Source: Candidatus Eiseniibacteriota bacterium (lineage in GTDB: Bacteria > Eisenbacteria > RBG-16-71-46 > CAIMUX01). From it: 31,740 nt of DNA. The notes under the pieces were generated by a model. The model was not told the origin of the DNA. It ran no database searches and saw only the letters and a program-made list of their open reading frames with translations. Where the stretch lies: assembly GCA_029569475.1 (NCBI GenBank), contig JAKQSZ010000022.1:1-31740 (forward strand), given 5' to 3'. The translations under genes were made by a program, and so were the position numbers. Below, in pieces: positions 3,987 to 30,770 of this stretch (positions are counted from its first letter, which is position 1; every line of letters begins with the position of its first letter).

Positions 3987-4391
3987 GGCAATGATCCTCC
4001 CTCGGGATGCCGGTCGCGACAACGCGGACTGCTCGTGGTCGGCTCCCGGACGGCACCTCCGGCGAGAGCCGGCGATGCGAACGATGAACGGGGCAGGGTC
4101 GCCCCCCTCGGATGGCGGACCCGGATTCCCGATCAGCCGGCCTTCCGGTGTCCCCAACCGACGGAATGAAGTCTAAGGAGATGGAGTTACGCGGCTGTTA
4201 CGCCGTGCATGACGTAGGGCCCCCAGGCCAGGAACTGTCGCCGCGACGGAACCGACCCAGGGCTCTCCGGAGACCCCCTCACGTGGCTCCAACCGGTCTG
4301 GCCGGGTCCGTCGAGTCCGATGATGAGCTACAATGGAATCCTCCGATCTGGACTTCAGTCGCGCCGAGTCGAACGGCCAGGAGGATCTTCC
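3987..4391. other. Divergent intergenic region
   Basis: About 400 bases separate the starts of the two large secreted genes, which are transcribed away from each other, so the region should carry promoters for both. I see one reasonable -10 element on the plus strand (listed separately) and no clear sigma-70 box on the minus strand. There is no recognisable RNA gene. Confidence 0.5.
4329..4334 (+). promoter_or_regulatory. Candidate -10 box for the GH85 gene
   Basis: TACAAT matches the TATAAT consensus at five of six positions and would give a transcript start near 4341, about 50 bases before the chosen ATG at 4392. No good -35 box lies 16-18 bases upstream, so this is weak evidence. Confidence 0.3.
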
Positions 4392-7300
4392 ATGTCAACC
4401 CACCGGCCTGCCGCTATCCCGTTGTGGTTCAACAGTCTGGCGTTCTTCTTGCTCCTTGCCGCGGCTGTCTGCCTCGTGGCGACACCGGCTCAGACGGGGC
4501 AACGGACGCTTCCCTCCGATCAGCCGTTCGCCTCCTACTGGTTCCCCAACGAACTGCTGGCCTGGAGCCCGGAGATCGATCCGGACGCGCCCTATAACAG
4601 GAGCCTCACGCCGCTGCGGGACCGGTTCCTGGGCGACCTCCAGGTCAACCCGCACGCCCGTCCCAACGAGGCGCGGATCTCGCCGCTCAGCATCTTCTGG
4701 GCGACGTCGGGCAACCCGTCCCAGGGATCGCTGGACATCGACTACTACACCTGCTCGTACTGGCCCTACATGGACAACCTGGTCTTCTGGGGAGGTTCGG
4801 CTGGAGAGGGGCTGATCCTGGCCCCCAACGGCGGGATCATCGACGCCGCGCACCGCAACGGCGTCCCCGTGCTCGGAACGATCTTCTTCCCGCCCAACGC
4901 CTACGGCGGGAACATCCAGTGGGTCAGGGACCTGGTGCAGCGCGCGGGCGACTCCTTCCCGGTCGCGGACAAGCTGATCGAGGTGGCCGAGTACTACGGC
5001 TTCGACGGGTACTTCATCAACCAGGAGACGAGCGGGGGGAACTCGGCTCTGGCTAACGATCTGATCGACTTCATGAAGTACTTCCAGGCCAACAGCGACC
5101 TCCAGATCATGTGGTACGACGCCATGATCGAGAGCGGCGCCATCTCGTGGCAGGAGCAACTCAACTCGCTCAATGACCGGTTCTTCCAGGATGGATCGCA
5201 GCTCGTCTCGGAACGCATGTTCCTCGACTTCGGATGGAACGGAACGGACTTGCAGTCCTCCCGCACCTACGCCCGGTCGCTCGGACGAAGCGAGTTCGAG
5301 CTCCACGCCGGCATCGACGTCCAGGCCAACGGGTACAACACCGGCGTCAACTGGGGAGCGGTCTTTCCCGAGGGGCTCCCCCACGTCACCTCCCTCGGGC
5401 TCTACGTCCCGAGCTGGACCTATCACAGCGCGTCCGGCCTGACCGACTTCTACGACCGGGACAACCGGTTCTGGGTCGGGCCGAACCGGGATCCGAGCAA
5501 CACCAACACCAGCGAGGCGTGGAAAGGGCTGGCCCACTATGTGCCCGATCTCTCCTCGATCAACGACCTGCCCTTCGGGACGGCGTTCGGAACCGGCCAG
5601 GGATACGGGTTTGCCCTGGACGGCGTGCCGGTCGCCCCGCCGGGATGGTCGGGGCAGGGCTGGAACAACATCGCCCTGCAGGACCTTCTCCCCTCCTGGC
5701 GATGGATCGTGGAAAGTCCCGGAGCCAAGCTCGCGCCCGCCTTCGACTGGTCCGACGCCTATTACGGTGGAGGCTGTCTGCGGATCTCCGGGGCGCTTCT
5801 GGCCGACAACCACATCAAGCTGTACAAGACCGATCTCCCCGTGACCCCGTCCACGCAGGCCCGGCTGGTGTTCAAGACCGGCCGGATCGGTGCCTCCTCC
5901 ATGCGGCTGGGGGTCGCCCTGGCCAGCTCGCCGCAGGACTTCCTCTTCCACGAACTGGGAGCCACCACGACGACCGGTTGGGAGGAGCGCGTGATCGACC
6001 TCTCCGGCTACCAGGGGGAACGCATCGCGGCCATCTCGCTCTTCTTCCCCGGTGGCCATGGCCTGGGCTACGAGATGAAGGTCGGGCTTCTGGTCGTCGA
6101 AGACGGGGACGGCCAGGCTCCGGCTCCGCCGTCGGACGTCGTGGTGGAGAAGCGAACGGATGAGGGGGACTTTGTGACGCTGCGCCTGCGCTTTCATCCG
6201 TCCACCGATCCGGTCCTTCACTACAACGTCTATCGCCGCAACCCGGACCTGACGTCCACCTGGGTGGCCGGGACGGCCAGCGACGCCTGCTTCGTCGCTG
6301 AGGTCCCCCATGTGCCGGGCGACAGCCTGGTGACGATGGAGGTCGAGGCGGTGGGTCCGGACTTCCGGCGGTCGAGCCGCGCCATCGTGACCTTCCCCTG
6401 GGATGCGCCCCCGTTGGCGGCCGGCCTTCCCGACCCGGCTGCCGGAGCCTCGGGCGTCGTGCGCAACCCCATTCTCGGATGGCACCCCGGCTCCAACGCG
6501 GTCTCCCATGATGTGTACTTCGGCGCGTCGTATCCGCCTCCTCTGGTCGCGAGCCAGACGGAGGTCGCGTTCGATCCCGGACCGCTCGAAGCGAACACCC
6601 TCTATCATTGGAGGATCGACGAACGGAACCAGGTCGGGGTCACGCCAGGACCGCCCTGGAGCTTCACCACCGGAGAGAGCTCCGCCGATCCGGGCTTCTA
6701 CGCCCTCGACTTCGACGGCCAGAATGACTTTGTCGACTGCGGCGACGGCTCGCTCGCCATCACCGGCCCTCGGATCACCCTCGAGGCCAGGATCCTGGCG
6801 CACGCGTGGAAGCCGAACGTCTGGGAAGGCTCGATCGTCAACAAGGAGCAGAACGGCCCGGACCACGGATACATGCTGCGGGCCGGCGGCAGCGGGAGGC
6901 TCAGCTTCAACCTCGGATCCGGCTCGTGGAATGAGGTCATCTCCCCCGTCGGCTCGATGGAAACGGGGCGGTGGATCCACGTGGCCGGCACCTACGATGG
7001 AACCACCATGCGGCTCTTCATCGGCGGCGAGCAGGTCGGCTCGCTGGCGCGCTCCTTCAACATCGGAGATGCCGGCGTGGACCTCTTCCTCGGCAATTCC
7101 CAGAGCAATCCGGGCCGCGTCTTCGATGGGCTGATCGACGAGGTCCGCGTCTGGAACCGCGCGCGGCCGCAGGGCCAGATCCGCGCCTACATGGACCGCG
7201 AGCTTCCCGAGGAGTACTTCCAGAATCCGGACAGCGGCCTGGTGGGCTATTGGCGCCTGAACGAGGGACGCGGGCAGCAGACGGAAGACCTCGCCTCCGG

Positions 7301-7694
7301 CGCCCATCACGGGCGGCGCGGCACGACAACCGGCGGAGACGGAGATGATCCGCTCTGGTTCCGTGTGCTCGACTTCCCGACCGGCGCCGGGGAGCCATGG
7401 GGCCTGGAAGCTCCGCCCGCGCTGCTGCTTCATCCGAGCGAACCGAACCCCTTCGCGGCGGCCACCTCCATCCGCTTCGATCTGCCGCGCGCGGGGGGGG
7501 TGCGCCTGGCCATCTTCGACCTGACGGGGCGTGAGGTTCGGGCGCTGTGGTCAGGACCTCGGGCCGCGGGAAGCCACGTCGTGAGCTGGGATGGGCGGGA
7601 TGAAGCAGGTCGGCCGCTCAGCGCCGGGCTCTATCTGTGCCGGATGACGGGGCAGGGGCAGGCGCGAGCGATCAAGATGCTCCGAGTCCGTTAG
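4392..7694 (+). CDS. Secreted GH85 endo-beta-N-acetylglucosaminidase with LamG and FlgD-like domains
   Basis: Predicted to cleave the GlcNAc-beta-1,4-GlcNAc core of N-glycans outside the cell. The start at 4392 follows AGGAGG by 8 bases and gives 1100 residues with a signal peptide (hydrophobic core FFLLLAAAVCLVATPA). The GH85 domain covers about residues 44-330. YGFDGYFINQET holds the family's catalytic Asn-x-Glu pair (N210, E212), and IMWYDAMIESGAISWQ is another family hallmark. Then follow a beta-sandwich (about 430-573), two Fn3-like domains (about 583-668 and 676-760), a LamG-type jelly roll (about 770-940, LDFDGQNDFVDCGDGS) and a FlgD-like tail (about 1012-1100, DLTGREVRALWSG) ending LRVR. 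The tail matches those of three other proteins in this window, suggesting a shared export or anchoring route. The enzyme family is secure; the natural substrate is inferred. Confidence 0.88.
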   Translation: MSTHRPAAIPLWFNSLAFFLLLAAAVCLVATPAQTGQRTLPSDQPFASYWFPNELLAWSPEIDPDAPYNRSLTPLRDRFLGDLQVNPHARPNEARISPLSIFWATSGNPSQGSLDIDYYTCSYWPYMDNLVFWGGSAGEGLILAPNGGIIDAAHRNGVPVLGTIFFPPNAYGGNIQWVRDLVQRAGDSFPVADKLIEVAEYYGFDGYFINQETSGGNSALANDLIDFMKYFQANSDLQIMWYDAMIESGAISWQEQLNSLNDRFFQDGSQLVSERMFLDFGWNGTDLQSSRTYARSLGRSEFELHAGIDVQANGYNTGVNWGAVFPEGLPHVTSLGLYVPSWTYHSASGLTDFYDRDNRFWVGPNRDPSNTNTSEAWKGLAHYVPDLSSINDLPFGTAFGTGQGYGFALDGVPVAPPGWSGQGWNNIALQDLLPSWRWIVESPGAKLAPAFDWSDAYYGGGCLRISGALLADNHIKLYKTDLPVTPSTQARLVFKTGRIGASSMRLGVALASSPQDFLFHELGATTTTGWEERVIDLSGYQGERIAAISLFFPGGHGLGYEMKVGLLVVEDGDGQAPAPPSDVVVEKRTDEGDFVTLRLRFHPSTDPVLHYNVYRRNPDLTSTWVAGTASDACFVAEVPHVPGDSLVTMEVEAVGPDFRRSSRAIVTFPWDAPPLAAGLPDPAAGASGVVRNPILGWHPGSNAVSHDVYFGASYPPPLVASQTEVAFDPGPLEANTLYHWRIDERNQVGVTPGPPWSFTTGESSADPGFYALDFDGQNDFVDCGDGSLAITGPRITLEARILAHAWKPNVWEGSIVNKEQNGPDHGYMLRAGGSGRLSFNLGSGSWNEVISPVGSMETGRWIHVAGTYDGTTMRLFIGGEQVGSLARSFNIGDAGVDLFLGNSQSNPGRVFDGLIDEVRVWNRARPQGQIRAYMDRELPEEYFQNPDSGLVGYWRLNEGRGQQTEDLASGAHHGRRGTTTGGDGDDPLWFRVLDFPTGAGEPWGLEAPPALLLHPSEPNPFAAATSIRFDLPRAGGVRLAIFDLTGREVRALWSGPRAAGSHVVSWDGRDEAGRPLSAGLYLCRMTGQGQARAIKMLRVR

Positions 7695-10714: not shown

Positions 10715-12832
10715 TGGGCTGCTGCTGGTGGGGGCTCGGGTCGGCCGGGGGCGAGTGCGTCGACTGGGGCGCTCATCTGCACTGGTGCGGCGGCGCGAAC
10801 ACGCCCGGGATGGCGTGGGGCGTGGCGATTTCGGGCACCCATGCCTACGTCGCGGATTACGGCCCCGGTCTCCACGTCGTTGACCTTGCCGATCCGGAGA
10901 ACCCGCGCATCATTGGGAGCCTGGACACACCGGGCTCGGCGGTAGCCGTCCGCGGCCTCGGAGACTCATGTCTACGTGGCGGATGCGTACTCCGGTCTTC
11001 AGGTGATCGATGTCACCGACCCTACGCGGCCTCAGATCGCGGGCACCATCAACACCCGCGACTACGCGGGGGACGTGGTCGTCTCCGGGATTCACGCCTA
11101 CGTCGCGGACGGCTCTTCCGGACTCCAGGTGATCAACACCTCGATTCCGGAGATGCCCTGGGTCGAGGGCAGCGTCAACACGCCGAGCTATGCGGTGGGC
11201 GTGGCCGTCTCCGGTACCCTGGCCTTCGTCGCGGATCAGCTCTCCGGCCTGCAGATCATCGACGTCACGGATCCCGCGAGCCCGCGGATCCTGGGCTCCG
11301 TGAACACGCCCAACGTTGCGTGGAGCGTGGCCGTTTCGGGCACCCACGCCTATGTGGCGGATGACTACGGCCTCCTGGTCGTCGATGTCACCTCTCCCGA
11401 ACATCCCCAGATCGTCGGTGGTCTCGACATGTACGCGCAGGATGTGGTTGTCTCCGGAGCTCACGCCTACGTGACCGATGGGATACACGGTATGCAGGTC
11501 CTGGACATCTCGGATGCGGTTGTACCCAGACCGGTGGGCTGGGTGGTCACCGGTGTCGATATGCTCGCGGTGGCGGCTTCCGCAACCTACGCCTGTGTCG
11601 CCAACGGCGAGTACGGCGTCCAGGTGATCGACAACCACAATCCGGAAAGCCCCCCGACGGTGGGCTGGGTGGACACGCCCGACCAGGCCTGGAGAGTCGC
11701 CGTCGCGTCGCCGTACGCCTACATGGCGAACTCCTCTTCCGGTTTGCAGGTGGTCGACGCCACGAACCCGGGTTCCCCCGTACTCGTCGGGAGCCTCGAT
11801 ACTCCGGGAAGTGCCCGCGACATCGGTCTTACCGCTACCCATGCCTTCATCGCGGACGATCCGTCGGGCCTTCTGATCGTGGACATCAGTCGGCCGTATG
11901 ACCCGCAGTTGGTTGGGAGTGTTGACACGCCGGGTTCGGCCCTGGCGGTGGTCGTCTCGGGTCACCATGCCTGGATTGCGGACGGCAGCGCGGGTCTTCA
12001 AGTCGTCGATATCACGACCCCGGGGGATCCTCGCGTCGTGGGAAATCTGGACACGCCGGGGTCCGCGAACGGCGTCGACATCTCCGTTAACTTCGCCTAT
12101 CTCGCGGACGGTTCCGCCGGCCTTCAGGTGATTGACATCACGAATCCGGCCAGTCCATGCCTCGTATGGACTGTGGACACGCCCGGCTCCGCCTCCGACG
12201 TGGTAGTCAGCGGCGCCTATGCCTACCTGGCAGATGGAGGCGGAGGGCTGGAGGTCCTCGATCTCACGGATCCCGCCAGGCCGTACATCCTTGGCCATCT
12301 CGCCCGACCGGCATATGCCGGCGACGTGGCGGTGTCCCTAACGCACGTCTACATCGCGGCCGGCCCGCTCGGGCTCCAGATTGCCGATGTCGCCGATCCG
12401 GCCAATCCCCGCCTGATGGGAGGGGTGTACCCGCGGGACAGCGCACTCGGTGTGGCCGTCTCCGGAGGCGTCGCCTACGTCGCCGCGGAGGACCGTGGCC
12501 TGGTGATCTTGCCGGGGCAATGCGCGCCGATATCGAGCGTTGGCCCTGAGCACGACGTGACGGCGCGCCTGGACGTGCGTCCCAACCCCGGCCGGGGCCC
12601 GATCTCCGTCGGGTTCGCGACGGCCGGACCTGGTGAAGTCGTGGCTCGCGTATACGACTCTGTTGGCCGGTGTGTGCGTCGGATCCATGGCGGGAGGGTT
12701 GGTCGCGGAATCCATCAGCTTGACTGGGACGGCCAGGACGAGAGCGGCCGCCTCGCCCGGAGCGGCCTGTACTTCGTCCGAGTGATCACCCCGGAGGGCA
12801 GCGCGGCGGCTCGCACCGTCGTCGTCAGATGA
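10645..12832 (+). CDS. Secreted LVIVD-repeat beta-propeller protein with FlgD-like tail, frameshifted
   Basis: A secreted protein built from LVIVD repeats. The start at 10645 opens a signal peptide and the mature N-terminus CVDWGAHLHW. The frame changes once: after PGSAVAV (near 10950) one extra C in GTCCGC moves the reading frame, and from about 10960 the repeats go on in the next frame to the stop at 12830. Joined, there are 14 repeats of about 42 residues (pattern HAYVADGSSGLQVIDVTDP), consistent with two seven-bladed propellers. The last 90 residues are a FlgD-like domain (WDGQDESGRLARSGLYFVRV) ending VVVR. A Cys near each end of the repeat region (CVDW, GQCAP) may form a closing disulfide. 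The frameshift may be real or a base-calling error. The ligand is unknown. Confidence 0.75.
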
Positions 12833-13104: not shown

Positions 13105-15405
13105 TCAGCGCAGCAAGAGAAGACGAGCGCTTTCCGGGTGGTCTCCGCGTTGGTCCCGGTAGTCCATCCGCGCGAAATAGACCCCGGCCGGCAGTAGCCG
13201 TCCGGTATCATCCCGGCCGTCCCAGCGGACCGTGTGCTCGCCGGCTCCGATCCGATCATGGATGAGGCGGCTGACCTGACGACCGGCTGTGTCGTAAATG
13301 CCGAGTTCGACCGCGCCCTCCCCCGGCAGCTTGAAGCTCAGCGTGGTCGTGGTCTGGAACGGACTGGGCATGCCCCCGCGCAGGAACTGGCCGTGAGCGT
13401 CCACGGAGAGCGAAGGCATCCCGGGCGTCCCGCCCTCCCCGCCGGTCGAGACGCCGGATGGCTCGGAGCAGTGGCCGGCCACGACCCTGAGGCCACGGGA
13501 AGCGACCGACACGAAGGCGTTGCCGCCCGCCGCATCCACGCTCATGGCCGCGCCGGGGATGTTGGCCGCGCCGAGCGAACGCGGCGAGAGCGGATCGCTC
13601 ACGTCAAAGGCCAGCAGACCCATGTAGCCGCCGGTCACATAGAGCGTCGATCCATCGAGCGCCACGCTTCCCGCCGCGTCGGGCAGCGGGATCCGGGCGA
13701 CCCGCACCGGGTGTTCCGGATCGGTCAGCCGGATGACCGTCAGCCCGTCGTTGATGGACGCCGCATGGACGAACTCGCCGTCGACCGCCAGGTCTTGCGG
13801 GCCATCCATGGCAATGCTGCCCACGATGCGAGGGGAGAAAGGATCCGATACGTCGATGACCTGCATCCCGCCATAGTAGACTTCGGCGGCCAACACATAG
13901 TCTCCCGCCAACGCCACCGCGTGGCAGTAACCGAGCGCCAGGGTGCTCGCGAGGCTGGGGGCGGCCGGCTGGGAGACGTCGATGATCTTGAAGGCTCCCC
14001 ACCCATCGGCGAGGTAGGCCCAACCCCCTGAAACAACGACGTCCTCCGCGCCGGAGGTGTCGAGAGTCCCCAGCAGCGTGGGGTTGGCCGGCGTGGAAAC
14101 GTCGAGGATGTGCAGGCCGGCGGTGCCGTCCGCCACATAGGCGCGGCCATCCACGACGTCGAGCCCCTGGGCCGAGCCTGGGGTGTTGTAGGTCCCGATG
14201 ATGACGGGCTGGGTCTCATCGCCGGCGTCGATGATCGTGAGCCCGCTGCTCCAGGCCGTGGCGTACACCGTCGTCCCATCAGCCAGCACTTCATCGCTCG
14301 TCCCTGGGTTGTAGAAGACCGAGCCGAGGACCGGCGGCGATGTCGGATTGGTGATGTTCAGCGTCCGGAAGGACTGCTGGCCCGTCACGCAGGCAAACCC
14401 GTCGGCTTCGGCCACCCAGCCGCCCGGCGCCAGCCCGCCCTGCAGCGTGGGGGTCTCCGGGTCGGTGAGGTCATAGACTTGCACGGTGCCGAGCTGGAGC
14501 CCGGTGACCGGAAGGCAGTGCACGAAAGCGGCGCCGTGGATGATGGTCACGCCAATCGCCAGCCCGTGATCGGGGTAGGTGTCGATGGTGGAGATGACGA
14601 CCGGATGGGCCGGATCGGCCACGTTGATGACCTCGATCCCGTCCTGCTCCGCGGCCACGTAGAGATAAGGCCAGGCGAGCGCCAGCCCCCGGTAGACTCT
14701 CGACGTCACCAGCGAACCTGCCGTGAAGGGATGAAGCGGATCGGAGACGTCGACGATCCAGAGACCGGAGCCCTGCACCAGGAGATAGGCGTACCCGTCG
14801 CGAACGACGAGACCGGACGCGTCGCCCGGGAGGGCGAGCGTCGAACGATGCGCCGGATAGGATGGATCGGAGACATCCAGGATGTGAAGACTTTCGCCGC
14901 CCAGGTAGGCGTGAGTCCCGTCCACGTCGACGAGGTAGCTTGTTCCTGGCAGATCCAGCGTGCCGAACAGGGTCGGATGACTCGGATCATACAGCCCGTA
15001 GACCGCCAGGTCGGGTGTGCCGGCCACGTACAGGTATTCCCTGGTGGCATCCACGCCGAGGGCCCCTTCGGAGATTCCGCCGGCGATCTGCGGAGTGGTC
15101 GGATCCTGGACGTCGATGATGGTGAGGTGTCCATAGTCGGCGGCATAGGCGCGCCCGTTCTCGACGACGACGCTGGAAGGCCAGCCGGCCAGGTCGATCG
15201 ATCCCATCCAATGAAGGTACCGGCTGTAATCCGTGCAGGACGCGCGGGCGGCGGAACTCGCAGCTCCGAACACGAGAGCGACCGCGAGCCCAAGCGCGAT
15301 CCCGCGCGCCGGAGCCGGGATCGGGTGAAGCGACCGGACCGGGGCGACGGGCTTGTGGCGGGAGGCACAGAGGTGAAGGCAATGAAAAACACACAATGGT
15401 CTCAT
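13105..15405 (-). CDS. Secreted LVIVD-repeat beta-propeller protein with FlgD-like tail
   Basis: A 766-residue exported protein, paralogue of and convergent with the LVIVD gene at 10645. The ATG at 15405 follows AGGAGG by 8 bases; the hydrophobic stretch GIALGLAVALVFGAASSAAR ends an unusually long signal region of about 55 residues. The mature start CTDYSRYLHW mirrors CVDWGAHLHW of the paralogue. Fourteen LVIVD repeats follow (for example AYVADGTAGLHILDVSTPAN), again compatible with two seven-bladed propellers, closing with GLRVVAGHC. The last 90 residues form a FlgD-like domain (IYDTAGRQVSRLIHDRIGAG, WDGRDDTGRLLPAGVYFARM) ending LLLR. The frame is intact throughout. Proteins of this kind are thought to sit at the cell surface; no partner or ligand can be named. 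Confidence 0.82.
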   Translation of the reverse strand: MRPLCVFHCLHLCASRHKPVAPVRSLHPIPAPARGIALGLAVALVFGAASSAARASCTDYSRYLHWMGSIDLAGWPSSVVVENGRAYAADYGHLTIIDVQDPTTPQIAGGISEGALGVDATREYLYVAGTPDLAVYGLYDPSHPTLFGTLDLPGTSYLVDVDGTHAYLGGESLHILDVSDPSYPAHRSTLALPGDASGLVVRDGYAYLLVQGSGLWIVDVSDPLHPFTAGSLVTSRVYRGLALAWPYLYVAAEQDGIEVINVADPAHPVVISTIDTYPDHGLAIGVTIIHGAAFVHCLPVTGLQLGTVQVYDLTDPETPTLQGGLAPGGWVAEADGFACVTGQQSFRTLNITNPTSPPVLGSVFYNPGTSDEVLADGTTVYATAWSSGLTIIDAGDETQPVIIGTYNTPGSAQGLDVVDGRAYVADGTAGLHILDVSTPANPTLLGTLDTSGAEDVVVSGGWAYLADGWGAFKIIDVSQPAAPSLASTLALGYCHAVALAGDYVLAAEVYYGGMQVIDVSDPFSPRIVGSIAMDGPQDLAVDGEFVHAASINDGLTVIRLTDPEHPVRVARIPLPDAAGSVALDGSTLYVTGGYMGLLAFDVSDPLSPRSLGAANIPGAAMSVDAAGGNAFVSVASRGLRVVAGHCSEPSGVSTGGEGGTPGMPSLSVDAHGQFLRGGMPSPFQTTTTLSFKLPGEGAVELGIYDTAGRQVSRLIHDRIGAGEHTVRWDGRDDTGRLLPAGVYFARMDYRDQRGDHPESARLLLLR

Positions 15406-15452
15406 GGTGGCTTCCTCCTGTCGCAGAGACCTGAGCACACAACGCCGGGAAG

Positions 15453-15482
15453 AGTATACTGCAGCGAGCTTATCCGTCGCAA
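15453..15482 (-). promoter_or_regulatory. Candidate promoter of the LVIVD gene at 15405
   Basis: On the minus strand TTGCGA (15482-15477) and TATACT (15458-15453) are 18 bases apart, matching four and five of six consensus positions. Transcription would start near 15446, leaving a leader of about 40 bases with the AGGAGG site. Confidence 0.45.
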
Positions 15483-15689
15483 CTGCGCCTTGGGTGTGGA
15501 TGACAAACCGGACTTTGCCGAGCCGCCGGATCACGCGGCGCCGGCCCTCTAGGGACTGGTCAGGCAGCACGATGATTCGCTCTGGCGCCACTTTGCGGAA
15601 GGACAAACATCGGGTCTTTCACGGGAGGCCAAGCGTGAGTGCTCGGGATCGCGGGACCCGAAAGCTCCTCTCGCGGTATCTTGCTCCTG

Positions 15690-17027: not shown

Positions 17028-18466
17028 AGTCACCAGAGAGCCTCGTAACGCCCCAGCCTCATGCCCGCGCGAGCCGCGACGATGGACATTCGGCCGGCCG
17101 GATCCGCCGTCGCGTCATCGCGGGTGGGGCAGGTATGCACGTGAAGATCTCACCACCCCTGAGGAGAAACCCCGGCCGGGGCTCGGCTGGCAGACATCGC
17201 GAGGCTCAGGCGGGAGAGGCGTCCCTGCTCACGCTGGCGGTCGCCGGCCTCTCTCTGGTTTTCTTGCTGGCCGCGGCGGGGTGCGACAAGAAGGAGAGCC
17301 ATGCTTCCGGCAGCGCGGCCCGGGGAGCGGGAGCAACGGCAGTCGCGACCGGCGGGTCGGCGGCGGAGGGGGCCGGAGGGGCCGGAGAGACTGGCGGAGC
17401 GGGAGGAACTAGAGGAGCTGGAGCAGCCGGTGGCAACCGGGGCCGGGGGGGGCCCAGAGGCGCAGCGGCCTTTCCGGTCGAGGTGACGCCGGTCGAGGGT
17501 CGTTCCGTCGAGTACATCGTTTCGGCGGTTGGTTCGGTGGAGGCCTTCGAGGTGGTGCACGTGACCGCTCGCGTGGCCGGCGCGGTCGAACGGGTCGCCT
17601 TCCGCGAGGGAGATGCGGCGCGCGCCGGGGACGTGCTGGTCGAGATCGAGCCGGAACGCTACCAATTCGTCCGTGAGGAAGCCGATGCCGCCTTGGAGAA
17701 GGCACGGGCGGCGCTGGCCGAGGCCGAGGCCGGCTTCAACCGCCGGGAGAGCGTGAACCAGAAGACGCCGGGCTTGATCCCCGGGGAGGAGGTCGACGCC
17801 TGGAGGACGCGCGTCCGCACGGCGGCCGCCGAGGTCGCCGCCCGCGAGGCGGATCTGAAGCTGGCCGAGCGCAACGAACGCGACGCGCGCGCCTCCGCGC
17901 CCGTTCCCGGGATCCTGCAGACGCGCGATGTGCAGACCGGCCAGTACGTGCAGCCCGGAGACATGCTCGCGACCCTGGTCCGGCGCGAACCGCTCCTGCT
18001 GCGCTTCGAGGTGCCCGAGGGAGAGGCGGCCCGCATCGCCCCGGGGATGACCGCCCGCTTCCGGGTTCGCGAGTCGGACCAGGAGCACTCCGCGCGGATC
18101 ACCCACGTGGCGGAGTCGGCCGACCGGCGATCGCGCATGGTGCCGGCAACCGCGGAAGTGACCAGCCCGGACCGCTCCCGCTTGCGGCCGGGCGCCTTTG
18201 CGGAGGTCTTCGTGCCGGTCGGAGTCTCGCGCGACGCGGCGGTGGTGCCACAGACCGCGGTCCGGCCGAGCGAGCGAGGCTTCCTGGCCTTTGTGATCCG
18301 GGAGGGAAAGGCCGAGGAGCGGGTCCTGACGCTCGGCCTGCGCACCTCGGACGGGCTGGTCGAGGTGCGGTCGGGGCTGGCCCCGGCCGAGAGCCTGGTG
18401 GTGCGCGGCGCGGAGGCGCTGGAAGACGGCGCCCGGGTGCGCGTGGTGCGGGGGACCGCGTCATGA
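17024..18466 (+). CDS. RND efflux periplasmic adaptor (membrane fusion lipoprotein)
   Basis: Adaptor that links the inner-membrane RND pump to the TolC-like channel, 480 residues. The GTG at 17024 overlaps the preceding stop by four bases and has GGAAGGA upstream. The signal region is odd: about 65 polar residues precede a hydrophobic stretch ending in the lipobox LAAAGC (Cys87). An internal ATG at 17135 would shorten this, but not to a normal length. A Gly/Ala-rich linker covers about residues 93-150. Then come the lipoyl half-motif VVHVTARVAGAVERVAFREG, a coiled-coil hairpin (ALEKARAALAEAEAGFNRRE to LAERNERDA), the second lipoyl half (TRDVQTGQYVQPGDMLATL) and the beta-barrel and membrane-proximal domains. 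It overlaps the RND gene by four bases. Confidence 0.88.
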   Translation: MKSPESLVTPQPHARASRDDGHSAGRIRRRVIAGGAGMHVKISPPLRRNPGRGSAGRHREAQAGEASLLTLAVAGLSLVFLLAAAGCDKKESHASGSAARGAGATAVATGGSAAEGAGGAGETGGAGGTRGAGAAGGNRGRGGPRGAAAFPVEVTPVEGRSVEYIVSAVGSVEAFEVVHVTARVAGAVERVAFREGDAARAGDVLVEIEPERYQFVREEADAALEKARAALAEAEAGFNRRESVNQKTPGLIPGEEVDAWRTRVRTAAAEVAAREADLKLAERNERDARASAPVPGILQTRDVQTGQYVQPGDMLATLVRREPLLLRFEVPEGEAARIAPGMTARFRVRESDQEHSARITHVAESADRRSRMVPATAEVTSPDRSRLRPGAFAEVFVPVGVSRDAAVVPQTAVRPSERGFLAFVIREGKAEERVLTLGLRTSDGLVEVRSGLAPAESLVVRGAEALEDGARVRVVRGTAS

Positions 18467-20997
18467 ACATCACCGAAGTCTGCATCCGCAAGCCGGTGCT
18501 GGCATGGATGCTGATCACCGCGACCGTGGTCTTCGGCCTGGTCGCCGGGTCGCGGATCGGCATCAGCCAGTTCCCCGACGTGGACTTTCCCACCATCAGC
18601 GTCTCGGTGGATTGGGAAGGCGCCGCCCCCGACGTGATCGAAAGCGACGTCATCGAGGTGCTGGAGGAGGCGCTCGTCCAGGTGGAAGGAGTGCAGTCGA
18701 TCACTTCCTCCGCGCGGCAGGGCAGCGCCAGCCTCACGGTGGAGCTCAACCTCGACCGCGATGTGGACCTGGCCATGCAGGATGTCCAGGCCAGCGTGTC
18801 CCGGGCGCAGCGGCAACTCCCCACTGACATCGATCCGCCGGTCATCTCCAAGACCAACCCCGAAGACCAGCCCATCATGTGGATCGCCGTTTCGGGACCC
18901 TTCCCGCGCAGCGTGCTGGCCGACTACACGCGTTACCGGGTCCGGGAGGAGTTGCAGACCATTCCCGGGGTCGGCGAGATCACCATGGGCGGCTACGTCG
19001 ACCGCAACGTGCGACTTTGGCTGGATGCCCGCCGGTTGGATGAGCGCGGCCTCACGGTCAGCGACGTCATCGCCTCCCTGCAGCAGGAGCACGTCGAGCT
19101 GCCGGCCGGCCGGCTGCAGACGGAGGGGCGCGAGGTCAACGTGCGCGTCCTGGGCGAGGCGCTGGACCTCGACACCTTCCGCCGCATCGTGGTAGGCGGA
19201 ACCTCCGGCGCGCCCATCTACCTCGAGGATGTCGCCCTGGTCGAGGACGGCTTCGAGGACATGCGCCGCCTGGCGCGGGTCAACGGCGAACCGGCGCAGG
19301 GGTTGGGGATCCGCAAGCAGCGGGGCGCCAATGCCGTCGCGGTGGCCGAACAGATCCGCGAGGCGCTGGCCGAGATCCAGGAGTCCCTGCCGGAAGGGAT
19401 GGCGATCGGCATCAACTTCGACTCCAGCCGCTTCATCGAGGAGTCGGTGCACGAGATCCAGTTCGAGCTGATCCTGGCCGTGCTGCTGACCGCCGTGGTC
19501 TGCTGGATGTTCCTCGGATCGTTCTCCAGCACGTTGAACGTGCTTCTGGCCATCCCGATGTCGCTGCTGGGGACGGTGGCGGCCATCTACTTCTTCGGCT
19601 ACACCTTCAACACCTTCACTCTCCTGGCCATGGCGCTGGCCGTCGGCATCGTGGTCGACGACGCCATCATGGTCCTGGAAAACATCACGCGCCATGGCGA
19701 GATGGGCAAGGACAAGGTGACCGCGGCGCGGGAGGGAACCAAGGAGATCACCTTCGCCGCGCTGTCCGCCACGATCGCGGTCGTGGCCATCTTCCTTCCG
19801 GTGGTCTTCATGGAAGGGGTGGTCGGACGCTTCTTCCTGCAGTTCGGCGTGACGCTCTGCGTCGCGGTCCTCCTCTCCTACGTCGAGGCCATCACGCTGG
19901 CGCCGGCGCGGTGCGCCCAGATCCTCGACATCCGGCATCAGGAGCGGCGGGGCATCGGCAAGTGGGTGGATCGCGGGTTCACCTGGCTGGAGTCGGCCTA
20001 TCGCGGCACCCTCCGCTTCGTCCTGGCCCGCCCCAAGCTCGTGCTGGCGGGGGCCGCCGTGCTCTTCGTGGGCGCCATGCTGGTCTTCCGCGCGCTCCCG
20101 TCGGAGTTCGTCCCCTCGCAGGACCAGAGCCGCCTGATGATCCGGCTGCAGACCGCGGTGGGATCCGACCTGTCCGAGACCGACCACCTCTTCCGCAAGG
20201 CCGAGGAGGTGGTTCGGTCGCATCCGGAGGTCGCGCGCGTCTTCGCGATCGTCGGCGGCTTCGGCGGCTCGGGCGTCAACTCGGGGATGCTGATGACGAG
20301 CCTGGTGCCTCCCTCGAAGAGGGAGAAATCGCATCTGGAGTTCGCGGCGGCCTTGCGGCGCGAACTGAATGCCATTCCGGGCCTGCGCGCCGTGGTGCAG
20401 GACCCTTCGCAGCAGGGGTTCACGGCGCGGCGCGGCTTCCCGGTGGAGTTTTCGGTGCGTGGATCACACTGGGAAGAACTGGTCAGCCTCTCCCACGAGA
20501 TCACGCGGGAGCTCGCCGCGAGCGGCCTGGTGGTCGACCTCGACACCGACTATGAGGTCGGCATGCCCGAACTGCGCGTCATGCCGGACCGGGCGCGCTG
20601 CGCCGACCTCGGCGTGTCGATCGAGGACGTGGCCAACGCGATCAACGCGACGGTGGGCGGGGTTCGTGTCGGGAAATACAACCAGGGCGGCCGCCGGATC
20701 GACGTGCGCATGCGCCTGCTGGCCGAGCAACGTTCTCGTCCCGAGGACATCTCCCGGCTGCGGGTCCGCACGGCCTCGGGCGATCTGATCCCCCTCCAGT
20801 CGGTCGTGAACACGGAGGAACGGCCCGCCCTGCAGGCGATCACGCGCCGCGACCGGGAGAGGGCGATCACGGTGTTTGCCAACGTCGCGCCGGGTCACTC
20901 GCAGCAGGAGGCTCTGGCCAAGGTCGAGGAGATCGGAAGGAGCATGCCGGTGGGCTACCGGCTAGTCCTGGGGGGCGCGAGCGTGGCCTTCCGCTAG
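18463..20997 (+). CDS. RND (HAE1/AcrB-type) efflux pump, N-terminal 844 residues, ended by in-frame TAG
   Basis: Inner-membrane proton-driven exporter. The ATG at 18463 overlaps the MFP gene by four bases (ATGA). Visible are the first membrane helix (KPVLAWMLITATVVFGLVAG), the porter domain opening (ISQFPDVDFPTISVSVDWEG) and the TM4 proton-relay Asp pair in GIVVDDAIMVLEN (D399, D400; equivalent to AcrB D407/D408). The frame stops at TAG 20995-20997 just before TM8 and resumes in the same frame at 21001. Relatives read on through this point (GG-A-AF-ES-GSLYFAL), so the TAG most likely replaces a Gln codon (CAG). TAG is used as a normal stop by other genes here, for example the GH85 gene, cstA and the end of this pump, so general recoding is unlikely. 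This piece alone lacks TM8-TM12. Confidence 0.85.
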   Translation: MNITEVCIRKPVLAWMLITATVVFGLVAGSRIGISQFPDVDFPTISVSVDWEGAAPDVIESDVIEVLEEALVQVEGVQSITSSARQGSASLTVELNLDRDVDLAMQDVQASVSRAQRQLPTDIDPPVISKTNPEDQPIMWIAVSGPFPRSVLADYTRYRVREELQTIPGVGEITMGGYVDRNVRLWLDARRLDERGLTVSDVIASLQQEHVELPAGRLQTEGREVNVRVLGEALDLDTFRRIVVGGTSGAPIYLEDVALVEDGFEDMRRLARVNGEPAQGLGIRKQRGANAVAVAEQIREALAEIQESLPEGMAIGINFDSSRFIEESVHEIQFELILAVLLTAVVCWMFLGSFSSTLNVLLAIPMSLLGTVAAIYFFGYTFNTFTLLAMALAVGIVVDDAIMVLENITRHGEMGKDKVTAAREGTKEITFAALSATIAVVAIFLPVVFMEGVVGRFFLQFGVTLCVAVLLSYVEAITLAPARCAQILDIRHQERRGIGKWVDRGFTWLESAYRGTLRFVLARPKLVLAGAAVLFVGAMLVFRALPSEFVPSQDQSRLMIRLQTAVGSDLSETDHLFRKAEEVVRSHPEVARVFAIVGGFGGSGVNSGMLMTSLVPPSKREKSHLEFAAALRRELNAIPGLRAVVQDPSQQGFTARRGFPVEFSVRGSHWEELVSLSHEITRELAASGLVVDLDTDYEVGMPELRVMPDRARCADLGVSIEDVANAINATVGGVRVGKYNQGGRRIDVRMRLLAEQRSRPEDISRLRVRTASGDLIPLQSVVNTEERPALQAITRRDRERAITVFANVAPGHSQQEALAKVEEIGRSMPVGYRLVLGGASVAFR

Positions 20998-21000
20998 TCG

Positions 21001-21567
21001 ATGGGGAGCCTCTACTTCGCCCTCTTCCTCGGGATCGGGGTGGCGTACATGGTGCTGGCCTCCCAGTTCAACTCCCTGCTTCATCCGCTGACCGTGCTGA
21101 CCATCCTGCCGCTCTCGGTAGCCGGCGCCGCCGCGGGGCTGTGGCTCACCGGCAAGACGCTCAACATCTTCAGCATGATCGGCCTCCTGCTCCTGCTGGG
21201 GATCTCGAAGAAGAACTCCATCATCCTGGTGGACTATGCGCGGCAGCGGCGCGATGAGGGCGCCGATCCTCGCACCGCCATGCTGTCGGCGGGAGAGAGG
21301 CGGCTGCGTCCGATCCTGATGACCTCGATCGCCACCATGTCGGCGGCGCTGCCTCCGGCGCTGGGGTTGGGGCCCGGTTCGGAGATTCGCATGCCCATGG
21401 CCATCGCCGTGATCGCCGGCCTGCTCGTGTCGACGGCTCTCAGTCTGCTCGTGGTCCCGGCGTTCTTCGTGACGGCCGATGGCGCCCTGGCGCGCATGAA
21501 GGGCTGGACCTTCTGGCGGCGGCAGCCTCGCCCCGCGGAGGCGCCCGCCCGGCCGGAGACCGTCTAG
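21001..21567 (+). CDS. RND efflux pump, C-terminal 188 residues downstream of the TAG
   Basis: Direct in-frame continuation of the pump: GSLYFALFLGIGVAYMVLAS is the TM8 region, SKKNSIILVDYARQRRDEGA contains the Lys equivalent to AcrB K940 (position 917 in joined numbering), and LRPILMTSIATMSAALPPAL completes the transmembrane core. Joined with the upstream part the pump is about 1033 residues, the normal size for HAE1 proteins. The relay Lys lies here while the relay Asp pair lies in the upstream part, so a working pump needs readthrough, two-part assembly or a corrected base. The ATG at 21001 could restart translation but has no good ribosome site. The stop is TAG. Confidence 0.82.
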   Translation: MGSLYFALFLGIGVAYMVLASQFNSLLHPLTVLTILPLSVAGAAAGLWLTGKTLNIFSMIGLLLLLGISKKNSIILVDYARQRRDEGADPRTAMLSAGERRLRPILMTSIATMSAALPPALGLGPGSEIRMPMAIAVIAGLLVSTALSLLVVPAFFVTADGALARMKGWTFWRRQPRPAEAPARPETV

Positions 21568-23784: not shown

Positions 23785-23925
23785 ATGTCCGAGAGGCCAT
23801 TCGTCGGACGAGACCGGTAACTCGCCGACCTCAAGAGGGTGATCGAGGACGACCGCGCCTCGAGTATGACGGCCATCTCCGGCCGGCGCCGGATCGGCAA
23901 GGCTCACCTGGACCGGGAAGCCGGT
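23785..23925 (+). pseudogene. Decayed ATPase N-terminus (Walker A region)
   Basis: From the ATG at 23785 the reading is MSERPFVGRDR, then TAA at 23818-23820, then in the same frame LADLKRVIEDDRASSMTAIS followed by GRRRIGKAHLDRE. This is the start of the FVGRE-type archaeal/bacterial AAA ATPases, which show GRRRIGKSxL as their Walker A motif; the usual Ser after GK is Ala here. Family-like sequence stops by about 23925, whereas intact members have 300-450 residues. Both the early stop and the altered Walker A point to a dead fragment. Confidence 0.55.
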
Positions 23926-24289
23926 CCGGGGATGGATCTTCTCCACCTCAGGGGTCTCGAGGGGATCGGCACGGCCGGGCAGAAGAAGCATGACTCCATG
24001 ACCCTGGAACGTCTCCGGCTCGCCCCTCTGACTCCGTCCATCCCCCGGCCTCGCTTCGATCCTGACCGCCGAAGAGTGGTCGCGCCTCAACGCGGCCGCG
24101 CCCGACGACGCCGTCCGTTCGGATGTCCTGGACAAGACCCTGATCTGGCTGATCGGGCACGATCGTCCCTCGGGATCTCCGCTCGTTCGGTCAACTGGAG
24201 CCGTGCGGCTCGCGGTTTCCGGAAAACTCCGGCGACCGGGCGAAGGAGTATGATGGTCCGCAGATGCGGCCGCGGGAGGAACCGAGAAC
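23926..24289. other. Intergenic stretch with a coding-like fragment
   Basis: No intact gene. The plus-strand frame from 24062 to a stop at 24251 reads LTAEEWSRLNAAAPDDAVRS and DVLDKTLIWLIGHDRP, which looks like true protein but has no start and no family that I recognise. It is probably the 3' end of another decayed gene. The final bases carry GGGAGGAA, the ribosome site of cstA. Confidence 0.35.
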
Positions 24290-28290: not shown

Positions 28291-29505
28291 CTAGAAGACC
28301 TCCGGGCACCAGGGCGCGCGGTCCCAGCGCAGCAGGTCGTCGAGGCGTTGGGCCGCCCCCTCGCGCCTCTCCATGGCCCGGCCGGAGCGTACGAGCTGGG
28401 CCATGGTGAATCCGCTCAGGTAGACCGATCCCAGCGCATTGATGTCACAGGCCAGGTCGGGATCCGCGGTCGTGCGGCCCAGCCGGCCGGCTCCGATCTC
28501 GTAGCGTCCCGTATTGGATTCCAGAAACTCGTCGGTGACCTCGACGACAACGGGAGCTCCCGGACGGATGGCGCGGGCCGCGAAGGCCGCGGGAACATCG
28601 ATGATGCGGACCCAGAGGGTGTCGGACACATGCCAACCCATGGAACGGGGCCGCGCGAGAAGCAACTGCAGCGGGTGATCCACGGGCAGGAAGTGCGCCT
28701 TGACGCGGCCGATCCAGTCGATGTCGAGGAGAAACCGCCAGATCTCGCGCGTGGCCTCGGGAGTCACGCCCATGGCCTCGACGACGCTGATGTGGCCGGC
28801 GGCGACGCCTCCCTCCTTGGCGGCGTGGATCCGGTAGATCGCGTACCCGGCGGGCTCGCCGTCGAGCTCAAGAACGGCGCGTTGCTGCGGACCGCCGCCC
28901 ATGCGGCGATTCTCGGGGTCGGCCAGGCGCCGCAACGTCCACCAGTCCTTCGAGCGGGCGCACATCCCTGGCGACACGCGACGGACCTGGTCGTAGACCC
29001 GGCTGATGGGCTCGACGGCTTCCTCCGCCCTGAGGAGACGGACCTGGCCGCGAGCCGCCGACGGGCGAGCAAAGGCGGCGGCGGTCTTCGGCAAGTCGAT
29101 GCTGCCGCCGAGGGCGGCCATGCCGTAGCCGTAGCGGCTGTAGATCGTCTCCTCCGAGGCCCAGAGGTAGGCGACCGGCTCGCCCCGTTCCTGGATGGCC
29201 TCGAGCTGACTTCGCATCATGGCGCGCTGGATGCCGCGCCGACGGTGGGTCGGGTAGACGCCCACCACCGTGACCGCGGCGGCTGACACCATTCCGCCCG
29301 GCACCGTGAGCTCGTGGGTATAGGCGCCCGCTCCCCCGACGATGGCGCCGTCGATCCGGGCGGCGTGCATCCGGGAGGGGCCCAGGAGAGTCATCCAGCG
29401 ATCGAGGTCTTCGGGCGCGAGGGAGAGGCCGAAGTAGTGCCAGATCGCTCCCAGCGCCTCCCCCAGGTCCTCGCGCGAACGGCAAAGCGTGATGGTCGGA
29501 TTCAT
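28291..29505 (-). CDS. Eis-like GNAT N-acetyltransferase
   Basis: An acetyl-CoA dependent acetyltransferase of the Eis family (404 residues, typical length), built of two GNAT lobes and a C-terminal SCP2-like domain. Relatives acetylate aminoglycosides at several amines and also peptide or protein lysines. The ATG at 29505 follows GGGAGG by 5 bases. The acetyl-CoA loop VVGVYPTHRRRGIQRAMMRS and the family hallmark YLWASEETIYSRYGYGMA are intact. The SCP2-like part begins near residue 290. The chain ends in PWCPEVF; in Eis the terminal Phe carboxylate takes part in catalysis, and it is kept here. The gene lies downstream of the YHS-like lipoprotein on the same strand, about 107 bases apart with a hairpin between, so cotranscription is uncertain. 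The true substrate cannot be told. Confidence 0.88.
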   Translation of the reverse strand: MNPTITLCRSREDLGEALGAIWHYFGLSLAPEDLDRWMTLLGPSRMHAARIDGAIVGGAGAYTHELTVPGGMVSAAAVTVVGVYPTHRRRGIQRAMMRSQLEAIQERGEPVAYLWASEETIYSRYGYGMAALGGSIDLPKTAAAFARPSAARGQVRLLRAEEAVEPISRVYDQVRRVSPGMCARSKDWWTLRRLADPENRRMGGGPQQRAVLELDGEPAGYAIYRIHAAKEGGVAAGHISVVEAMGVTPEATREIWRFLLDIDWIGRVKAHFLPVDHPLQLLLARPRSMGWHVSDTLWVRIIDVPAAFAARAIRPGAPVVVEVTDEFLESNTGRYEIGAGRLGRTTADPDLACDINALGSVYLSGFTMAQLVRSGRAMERREGAAQRLDDLLRWDRAPWCPEVF

Positions 29506-29612: not shown

Positions 29613-30293
29613 TCAAGTCCGGTCGCTCCCCGGCGAAGGTGTGGTCTGCCGCATCCGGAAGTGGGGAACCGAGAAGCTGTCCGGCCGGGCCGCGAACTCC
29701 TGACGCGTCTTGTCGGAAACGAAGTAGAAGCGGCGCCCTCCGGCCTCGGCGACCGGCGAACGCTTCGTCGGAACGAACCGCTGCAAAGTCACCGGGTCGG
29801 TCAGCGGCCCGCACCAGCGGGTCGGATCGGCCTCGAAGCGGCGCCGGGCTTCGGAATCGGAGAAGTAGAAGATCTCGAAGTTGAGCGAGGCGCGCAGGGA
29901 CTCCTCGATCCGCGCCTCGATCCGGTCGGTCATCAGGCAAGGGACGCGGATCTGCTGCTCCCGCATGTACGGATCGGGGTCTTGCACGAAGACCCTGACG
30001 CAGGGTGTTCAGCAGAATCCGACCGGCCGGCCATTGACGTAGATCGCGCGGATCCTGGGGTTGAGCCTGGAGGAGCGGACCATGCACCTGTCATTCAGGG
30101 TGCGGGTACGGTCGGCGTACAGCAGCCGCGGCAGGGCGGCGGTCGAGTCGTCATAGACCGGACACAGCCCTTCGTCGAGGATCGTTACCTGGCGCTCGTC
30201 CCCTCCGCAACCCGCGCCCCACGCGAAGACGAGAGCCGCGGCGGCCGGCACCAGCCAGCCGCGCTTCCATGAAACCGGTCGAAGGGCTCGCAT
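29613..30293 (-). CDS. Lipoprotein with three YHS-like domains and an in-frame UGA: candidate selenoprotein
   Basis: The ATG at 30293 follows AGGAGA by about 6 bases. The chain starts with a lipoprotein signal (LVFAWGAGC, lipid Cys29). Residues about 66-112 form a YHS/TRASH-like metal-binding domain: C70 in NDRCMV, then YVNGRPVGFC (C94), UGA as residue 95, T, P, C98, and VQDPDPY. Relatives have FCC-x-x-C here, so the UGA stands exactly where a Cys is expected. After it the frame stays open to 29613 and keeps family sequence: a second (IFYFSDSEARRRFEADPTRW) and a third YHS-like core (RFYFVSDKTRQEFAARPDSF) without the Cys cluster. With Sec the protein has 226 residues. A SECIS-like hairpin follows the UGA. 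Such domains bind copper or other soft metals; the target is unknown. A nonsense mutation or base error is the alternative. Confidence 0.6.
29977..29995 (-). promoter_or_regulatory. Candidate bacterial SECIS hairpin
   Basis: In the mRNA, GGGUCUU (29995-29989), loop CGUGC (29988-29984) and AAGACCC (29983-29977) form a perfect 7-bp stem. The loop begins 21 bases after the UGA at 30011-30009, inside the 16-37 base range described for bacterial SECIS elements, and has a G as its second base followed by U, as the consensus asks. A competing hairpin, ACCCUG-CGU-CAGGGU, lies between the UGA and this stem, so folding needs to be tested. Confidence 0.4.
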
Positions 30294-30770
30294 ACAGTTC
30301 TCCTAGCCTGATCTGTCCCGTGGTCGTCGCCTGGCCTCCCTGCCCTGGGACCGCGAAGAACTGCGGGAAGCGCGCTGTCGATGAGAGGGAATACCCGGAC
30401 GGCACGTCCTTGCGACCAGGGCATTCAGGGCAGCCGCCGATTCTACCTCAAGCTGTCGGAGCTGGTCACGGCGAACTCCCGCAGCGCCTCGAAAATCCTC
30501 GGCAGAAGGCGTCGCCGATCAGGTGGATTGGTTGTGGAAGGAGTTCTGGTGTGCGGGTAGCGACGAGCGTTCGACGGTGGTCCCGCCGGCCGCTCCCACG
30601 CCTGTGGCCACAAGATCTGGCTTCAATCGATGAAGAACTGAGGCTATCGTGGGGAGTGCAGACCCGAAAGGCACATGAGAAGGACTGCGGGAAGCCAAGT
30701 GAGTGGCCAGACTGAGCGGTAGCCGGGTCGATCGGTAACCGGGCTGATCGGTCGCAGCGAGTCCTAGCGG
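30294..30770. other. Gene-free stretch with a short tandem repeat
   Basis: No intact gene is seen. On the plus strand, near 30430, RRFYLKLSELVTANSRSASK looks protein-like but soon ends without a domain that I can name. At 30717-30755 a 16-base unit (CGGTAGCCGGGTCGAT, then CGGTAACCGGGCTGAT, then CGGTCGC) is repeated 2.4 times just beyond the stop of the transposase, and may mark the end of that element. Confidence 0.45.

Follow-up and report, generated by a model that had tools for sequence, protein, structure and literature searches.

A candidate exported selenoprotein with YHS/TRASH-type cores and a conserved in-frame UGA beside a putative metal-binding site

Organization of the locus

The window analyzed here is a stretch of 31,740 nucleotides from a Candidatus Eiseniibacteriota contig. 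On its minus strand, a single reading frame runs from ATG 30293 to 29613 and, as a sequence-only reading of the window had claimed and translation confirmed, is broken only by the TGA at 30011-30009; the frame encodes 226 residues plus a terminator, with this one internal stop (Table 1). The DNA around codon 95 reads ggattctgc-TGA-acaccctgc, which gives the protein context VGFC-U-TPC. The terminator of the gene itself (29615-29613) is also TGA, and UGA is therefore not generally a sense codon here.

Table 1. Positions of the candidate selenoprotein gene, its elements and other features of the window
Feature	Position	Strand	Remarks and basis
Candidate selenoprotein gene	29613..30293	-	226 residues + TGA terminator; predicted exported; three YHS/TRASH-type cores
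In-frame TGA, codon 95, putatively read as selenocysteine (GFC-U-TPC)	30009..30011	-	13 other genomes also have TGA here
RBS-like AGGAGA	30299..30304	-	five bases upstream of ATG 30293; read from sequence
Candidate SECIS-type hairpin	29978..29994	-	6-bp stem (29994-29989 with 29983-29978), loop CGUGC (29988-29984); covariation and bSECIS model
Cys70 (NDRC)	30084..30086	-	invariant, from alignment; equivalent of the first YHS/TRASH Cys ligand, by analogy with the accessible text of PMC4626032
Cys94 (GFC)	30012..30014	-	invariant; YHS/TRASH ligand position; alignment
Cys98	30000..30002	-	invariant; YHS/TRASH ligand position; UxxC with Sec95; alignment
Cys119	29937..29939	-	possible further ligand or resolving Cys; alignment
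GNAT acetyltransferase with SCP2-like domain	28294..29505	-	downstream neighbor
AcrB-family transporter gene	18463..21567	+	interrupted by TAG at 20995-20997
Stretch starting ERPFVGRDR	23785..24170	+	in frame with ATG 23785; TAA at 23818-23820
Large LVIVD-repeat protein	10976..12832	+	C-terminal FlgD_ig
Large LVIVD-repeat protein	13105..15606	-	C-terminal FlgD_ig
GH85-family protein	4320..7694	+	same C-terminal domain

The acetyltransferase next to the candidate gene belongs to subfamily PRK01346 (Eis-like). In the interrupted AcrB-family gene, ACR_tran was matched at 2-854 of 1021 before the TAG and at 863-1019 after it. The stretch starting with ERPFVGRDR, which we take to be ATPase-like, looks like a decayed gene, and its segment 23848-24168 had no Pfam match. 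The earlier caution about interruptions in other genes of this window was borne out for these two, which were the ones that we looked at, and neither of their stops is TGA.

Neighborhoods were compared by a mechanical listing of open reading frames, antisense frames included, and no conserved partner gene was recognized within 9 kb of the UGA in eight loci of 10-19 kb and the window. An AcrB-family gene adjoins the candidate selenoprotein gene in genome G055; in the window the distance is about 8 kb, and the position is not conserved. Genomes G053 and G054 share a block containing an AAA ATPase, presumably to be called RadA-like, together with IspD and others. One loosely linked gene set was seen in five loci (L055, L056, L058, L059 and L060) at differing distances and on differing strands; its one scanned member is a beta-helix/FlgD_ig protein, which is why we regard the set as reflecting a common domain of surface proteins (20 neighbor proteins were scanned overall).

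Conservation of the in-frame TGA

The 80 genomes of the phylum to which G001 belongs yielded 14 matches at E <= 1e-6. Eight were strong (199-276 bits), each with one TGA; the other six were weak (30-40 bits), had no stop and were excluded from the count as probably other YHS-like proteins. A search of 387 relatives, with at most 8 candidates scored per genome, gave 10 matches at E <= 1e-12, two of which (G272 and G316) were new. One of the five genomes in the phylum of G272 matched, as did four of the seven in that of G316, adding three carriers. All 13 genomes with a strong homolog have exactly one in-frame stop, TGA at codon 95 (for the relative L001, MAG KW1-S15_115, TGA was likewise read at the same codon). 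The window and these 13 genomic carriers make up the 14 loci, and the 14 Sec forms, that are compared below. No relative was found among viral contigs or plasmids when both collections were searched.

In protein databases, a first search matched 15 proteins, and a profile search, which scored the 7993 candidates sharing most words, matched 128, with the best 120 of the 128 listed. Of the 123 different database proteins, 45 were first classed as full-length and 53 as C-terminal pieces; 22 more stopped at FC, and 3 fitted none of these classes. With a wider motif, two of these three joined the full-length set and the third was a C-terminal piece. Among the 47 full-length database homologs, position 95 is Cys in 46 and Gly in one. 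UGA or Cys (once Gly) therefore occupies this position and both flanks are conserved, a pattern that the sequence-only reading had named as favoring Sec. All 22 N-terminal pieces end exactly at GFC and, among the 123 proteins, none ended elsewhere; these pieces were defined by their FC ending, and a cross-check left no N-terminal piece over. Most C-terminal pieces (45 of 53, judged by eye) begin no more than about ten residues past the UGA. Protein records are silent on which stop codon causes the break, and the genomic loci show TGA.

If the UGA were an ordinary stop, two separate genes could lie here, the second protein being started from a GTG or ATG just downstream. Gene callers split many entries in this way (the 53 C-terminal pieces), and a GTG is present at 29987. 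However, the invariant C94-x3-C98 pair straddles the UGA, 46 homologs are continuous with Cys at position 95, and the first half has a signal sequence whereas the second half, judged by eye, has none. Two genes would also leave the covarying hairpin described below, and its position, unexplained. We consider this arrangement very improbable.

Alternatively, the UGA could be a true stop or an error, that is, a nonsense mutation, a sequencing error or the mark of a pseudogene whose remainder is decaying, and the TAG-interrupted AcrB-family gene demonstrates that broken genes are present in the window. This explanation does not fit the strong genomic homologs, 13/13 of which have a lone in-frame TGA, always at codon 95, and no other stop. 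As the sequence-only reading had maintained, the downstream part has not decayed: the window frame is open to its end, and random stops were absent from the relatives (0/13 with a second stop). Additionally, purifying selection acts past the UGA, with dN/dS for G391/G392 of 0.28 before the codon and 0.10 after it. In four more distant pairs the values were 0.18-0.33 upstream of the codon and 0.23-0.39 downstream of it, saturation preventing the calculation of one downstream value; all five pairs were hand-chosen, and their upstream parts start at the preceding in-frame stop and may include bases before the start codon. Mutation, error or decay is thus exceedingly improbable, the least probable of the explanations that we weighed.

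One branch in a tree of the family has the Sec forms on the same side, G002 being at the boundary. The support of this branch is only 60/66, and a single origin of the Sec forms is therefore not established. The closest Sec pair, L071 (G392) and L072 (G391), differs just after the UGA (Ser-Pro-Cys versus Thr-Pro-Cys); both loci keep the hairpin, that of G391 with a G-U pair. One database protein, P0006 (211 residues, Cys at 119), has Gly at the Sec position and yet falls inside the Sec group (97/75 with G075). P0006 may be a UGA form whose translation used a code assigning Gly to UGA.

Selenocysteine machinery and genetic code

Machinery genes were sought in the eight carriers of G001's phylum (G001, G002, G037, G053, G054, G055, G067 and G075); G272, G316, G391, G392, G394 and the genome of the window were outside this test. 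Both selA and selD scored over their cut-offs in 8/8 genomes and selB in 6/8, the remaining two falling below the selB cut-off of 242.25 (G037, 187.3 bits; G053, 218.8 bits). A tRNA-Sec of 67-76 bits was found in seven of the eight, with none over the gathering score in G053. All four components were over cut-off in six carriers, and incomplete assemblies could explain the weak selB of G037 and G053 and the missing tRNA-Sec of G053. In 14 known genomes used as controls, the numbers over cut-off were two for selB, one for selA, two for selD and five for tRNA-Sec.

Across the whole phylum of 80 genomes, selB was over cut-off in 73, which identifies a selenocysteine-using group, and tRNA-Sec in 72. 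Since the machinery is nearly universal there, its presence in the carriers is permissive rather than specific as evidence. The selD gene of each of the eight carriers tested contains one in-frame TGA, and SelD of these genomes is probably itself a selenoprotein. The AspRS of the window is 41-47% identical to that of the same phylum (75/80 genomes matched), and the organism of the window is therefore at best a distant relative of those 80 genomes.

A changed code or a suppressor tRNA could also lead to UGA being read as Cys, Gly or Trp rather than as Sec, and P0006, with Gly at position 95 inside the Sec group, looks as if a UGA=Gly code had been used. However, UGA also terminates the same gene in 9/14 loci, and the carriers have selA, selD and mostly selB and tRNA-Sec. 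The in-frame TGA in selD of the same genomes and the presence of a SECIS-type hairpin likewise argue against recoding to another amino acid, which we regard as extremely improbable.

A covarying hairpin downstream of the UGA

The DNA 3' of the TGA aligns without gaps in the 14 loci. Alignment columns 27-32 pair with columns 38-43 and close a five-base loop, CGUG[C/A]; the stem starts 14 nt past the UGA and the loop 20 nt past it. Standard pairs fill 82 of the 84 cells (54/54 in the first nine loci alone), two of the six pairs failing in G272, and three of the six change on both sides among the 14 loci. None of 500 shuffles reached the observed percentage paired or the covariation score, although relatedness of the loci can inflate both results. 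Two further shuffle measures were unexceptional: double-change pairs were as high in 15/500 shuffles, and further pair types in 496/500. When the register was slid, only 23.8-65.5% of cells paired, the next best register reaching 65.5%.

The hairpin also seems to leave a trace in the coding sequence. Codon 101 is nearly the reverse complement of codon 105 (GUC-GAC, ACC-GGU, AUC-GAU, AUC-GGU and GCU-AGC), G272 excepted, and the encoded residue pairs (V-D, T-G, I-D, I-G and A-S) seem to vary in concert among the Sec forms. Because these two codons are paired in the hairpin, this looks like an RNA structure steering the protein sequence. Within the stem, the Gln/Lys codon has A as its last base in all of the first nine loci and in 12 of 14 overall (G in G272 and G391). 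In 8 of the first nine loci, the A-ending codon is locally the less common choice, and the product of the local frequencies is 3.3e-7 if they are independent. Residue 103, whose GUG codon lies in the loop, is Val in 14/14 Sec forms and in 23/46 Cys forms, and pairing would be possible at the residue level in 13/14 Sec forms and 31/46 Cys forms.

The bacterial SECIS model given in the Fig. 2 legend of PMC13188914 requires a loop of 3-9 nt, 4-16 bp, a G in the first two loop positions, a distance of 16-37 nt from the UGA and an MFE <= -7.5. The window hairpin lies within all of these limits (6 bp closing a 5-nt loop with G as its second base, spacing 20 nt, MFE -12.2), and the hairpin of L010, with an MFE of -6.5, misses the limit of -7.5 in that legend. 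Folding energies are ordinary in the 14 loci (z -1.79 to +0.16), and the minimum-energy fold contains all six pairs in seven loci and four pairs in one more. Folding energy is weak as SECIS evidence, and covariation carries the argument. An Rfam scan of the window returned nothing at gathering thresholds.

Domain cores, cysteine ligands and export signal

The Pfam YHS model (PF04945) matched the joined protein in two stretches with 23.1 bits (E 7.5e-05), and a precomputed PF04945 annotation is found on many full-length homologs. The earlier label "YHS-like" thus agrees with the Cys ... C-x3-C pattern and is weak by Pfam, whose cut-off is 30.3. Structure prediction used 17 sequences with Cys substituted for Sec; the best of five models had a pLDDT of 80.5 and a pTM of 0.72, with mean pLDDT down to 58.7 among the five. 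Three strand-strand-helix-helix (E-E-H-H) units were predicted, at residues 84-112, 134-160 and 181-207, of which only the first retains Cys ligands. These predicted units accord with the claim that more YHS-like cores follow downstream. Among solved structures, a search by fold found no match at E <= 0.001, and a search by sequence found only repeat-like matches, to adenylate kinase 9 (6.8e-07 over the whole chain) and to a second cilia protein (1.3e-06), no individual stretch scoring better than 0.23. The lack of a structural match does not show a new fold.

The general YHS/TRASH motif is FC-x3-C. The sequence-only reading had taken FCC-x-x-C to be the normal form, which was incorrect: the YHS domain of Mycobacterium phlei (M. 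phlei) described in the accessible text of PMC4626032 has C204-x3-C208. A Cys directly after Cys94 is a feature of the present family (46/47 full-length homologs). C70, C94 and C98 are present in 61/61 full-length sequences, and Cys119 occurs in 12/14 Sec forms versus 15/46 Cys forms. The UGA does replace a conserved Cys, as had been proposed, but that Cys does not belong to the three classical TRASH ligands. By analogy, Sec95 would be the extra thiol/selenol of the family, beside the classical ligands C70, C94 and C98.

The protein had also been called a lipoprotein. Inspection by eye revealed a lipobox-like Cys in 8/14 Sec forms and signals like ordinary signal peptides in the other six, and "exported" is the safer term.

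Interpretation and proposed function

The reading of UGA as selenocysteine is strongly supported by the codon conserved in 13/13 genomes, the Cys homologs, the covarying hairpin and the sel genes. On sequence comparison and a predicted structure, we judge with a probability of roughly 0.94 that the gene encodes an exported selenoprotein in which UGA95 is decoded as Sec, with three YHS/TRASH cores of which the first keeps its Cys ligands.

We provide a putative mechanism for the action of this protein. UGA95 would be decoded as selenocysteine by the bacterial SelA/SelB/SelD/tRNA-Sec machinery, directed by the hairpin 14 nt downstream. The product would be exported and would consist of three E-E-H-H YHS/TRASH cores, only the first having the ligands C70, C94 and C98. 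Sec95 would add a very soft, low-pKa and redox-active ligand to this core, creating a vicinal C94-U95 and a U95-x-x-C98 pair. Outside the cytoplasm, the protein would then most probably bind a thiophilic metal ion, e.g., copper(I) or mercury(II), and would release the metal on oxidation of U95-C98 (or U95-C119) to a selenenylsulfide. What points to a carrier or sensor of a thiophilic metal with a redox switch is the combination of invariant ligands, export and a soft additional ligand; the assignment is tentative, and we give it slightly less than an even chance.

The main functional rival accepts Sec decoding and makes the residue catalytic, the protein being an exported oxidoreductase or peroxidase that works through U95-x-x-C98 with the YHS fold as a scaffold. 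UxxC is frequent in Table 1 of PMC13188914, the accessible text of which calls most uncharacterized selenoproteins probably redox-active, and the higher frequency of Cys119 in Sec forms points in the same direction. However, the invariance of C70, C94 and C98 goes beyond the needs of a redox pair alone, and the model contains three short predicted E-E-H-H units rather than a thioredoxin-like fold. A catalytic role is a serious possibility, albeit one that we doubt more than we credit.

The proposed Sec95 puts selenium next to a probable extracytoplasmic metal-binding site, which makes a role of Sec in metal handling directly testable. Members of the family come from three groups, each handled as a phylum of its own in the genome search, and many entries in protein databases are probably halves of a single gene mistaken for whole proteins. 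We speculate, at odds approaching but not reaching even, that this is a large unannotated exported family spanning several phyla and split in databases, in which Sec serves as an extra TRASH-site ligand of a redox-gated soft-metal carrier or sensor.

Comparison with known systems

Known selenoprotein families are not numerous: the 2026 review PMC13188914 counts 119 families and subfamilies, and the present family is absent from its Table 1. The window protein also stays below the cut-off of every NCBIfam model. Our literature search on YHS with selenoprotein or selenocysteine returned two reviews, a 2008 ocean survey and one cancer-cell paper, in which the family is undescribed; two sources that are cited in PMC13188914 and lay outside this search, the Deng et al. 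2026 groundwater survey and mSystems 2025 e01417-24, might contain it. We read the gene as the member of an undescribed selenoprotein family.

A YHS-type domain with a reported selenoprotein form is shared with NF041384, the YHS domain-containing (seleno)protein, which has the motif GxU and is the only YHS family in Table 1 of PMC13188914; a "YHS domain protein (OS)" also appears in a table of PMC2398784. NF041384 scored 14.9 bits on the joined protein and 17 bits on its second half alone, against a cut-off of 70, and it aligned to the Cys-less third core (residues 183-208) and not to the Sec region. The Sec motifs also differ, FCUxPC in the window versus GxU as tabulated for NF041384. Identity with NF041384 was rejected by the score and the Sec motif. 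In the 80 genomes of G001's phylum, this model gave 18 weak matches, none over cut-off and none with an internal TGA.

A YHS domain is also held by toluene-4-hydroxylase, a multicomponent monooxygenase alpha subunit, according to the accessible text of PMC4626032. In such alpha subunits the YHS part belongs to a large enzyme, and the match of the window protein is below any threshold for a firm relation. For SaoB, SaoC and UXX-star, Sec has been suggested as a metal ligand in the accessible text of PMC13188914, which gives MbdU as "metal-binding double selenoprotein". The window protein showed no match at E <= 10 to the NCBIfam models of these four. SaoB, SaoC and MbdU have a vicinal Cys-Sec in the table of that review, as the window protein would with C94-U95.

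The YHS domain of an M. phlei adenylyl cyclase is copper-responsive, with D178, C181, C204 and C208 as proposed ligands (PMC4626032, accessible text). The spacing there is C-x22-C-x3-C (C181, C204 and C208), compared with C-x23-C-x3-C (C70, C94 and C98) in the window protein. The likeness covers these three Cys, the Asp ligand of that text having no assigned counterpart here. In contrast to the single cytosolic domains described in the same text, which include ribosomal protein L24e, the window protein has three cores, predicted export and a Cys/Sec directly after Cys94.
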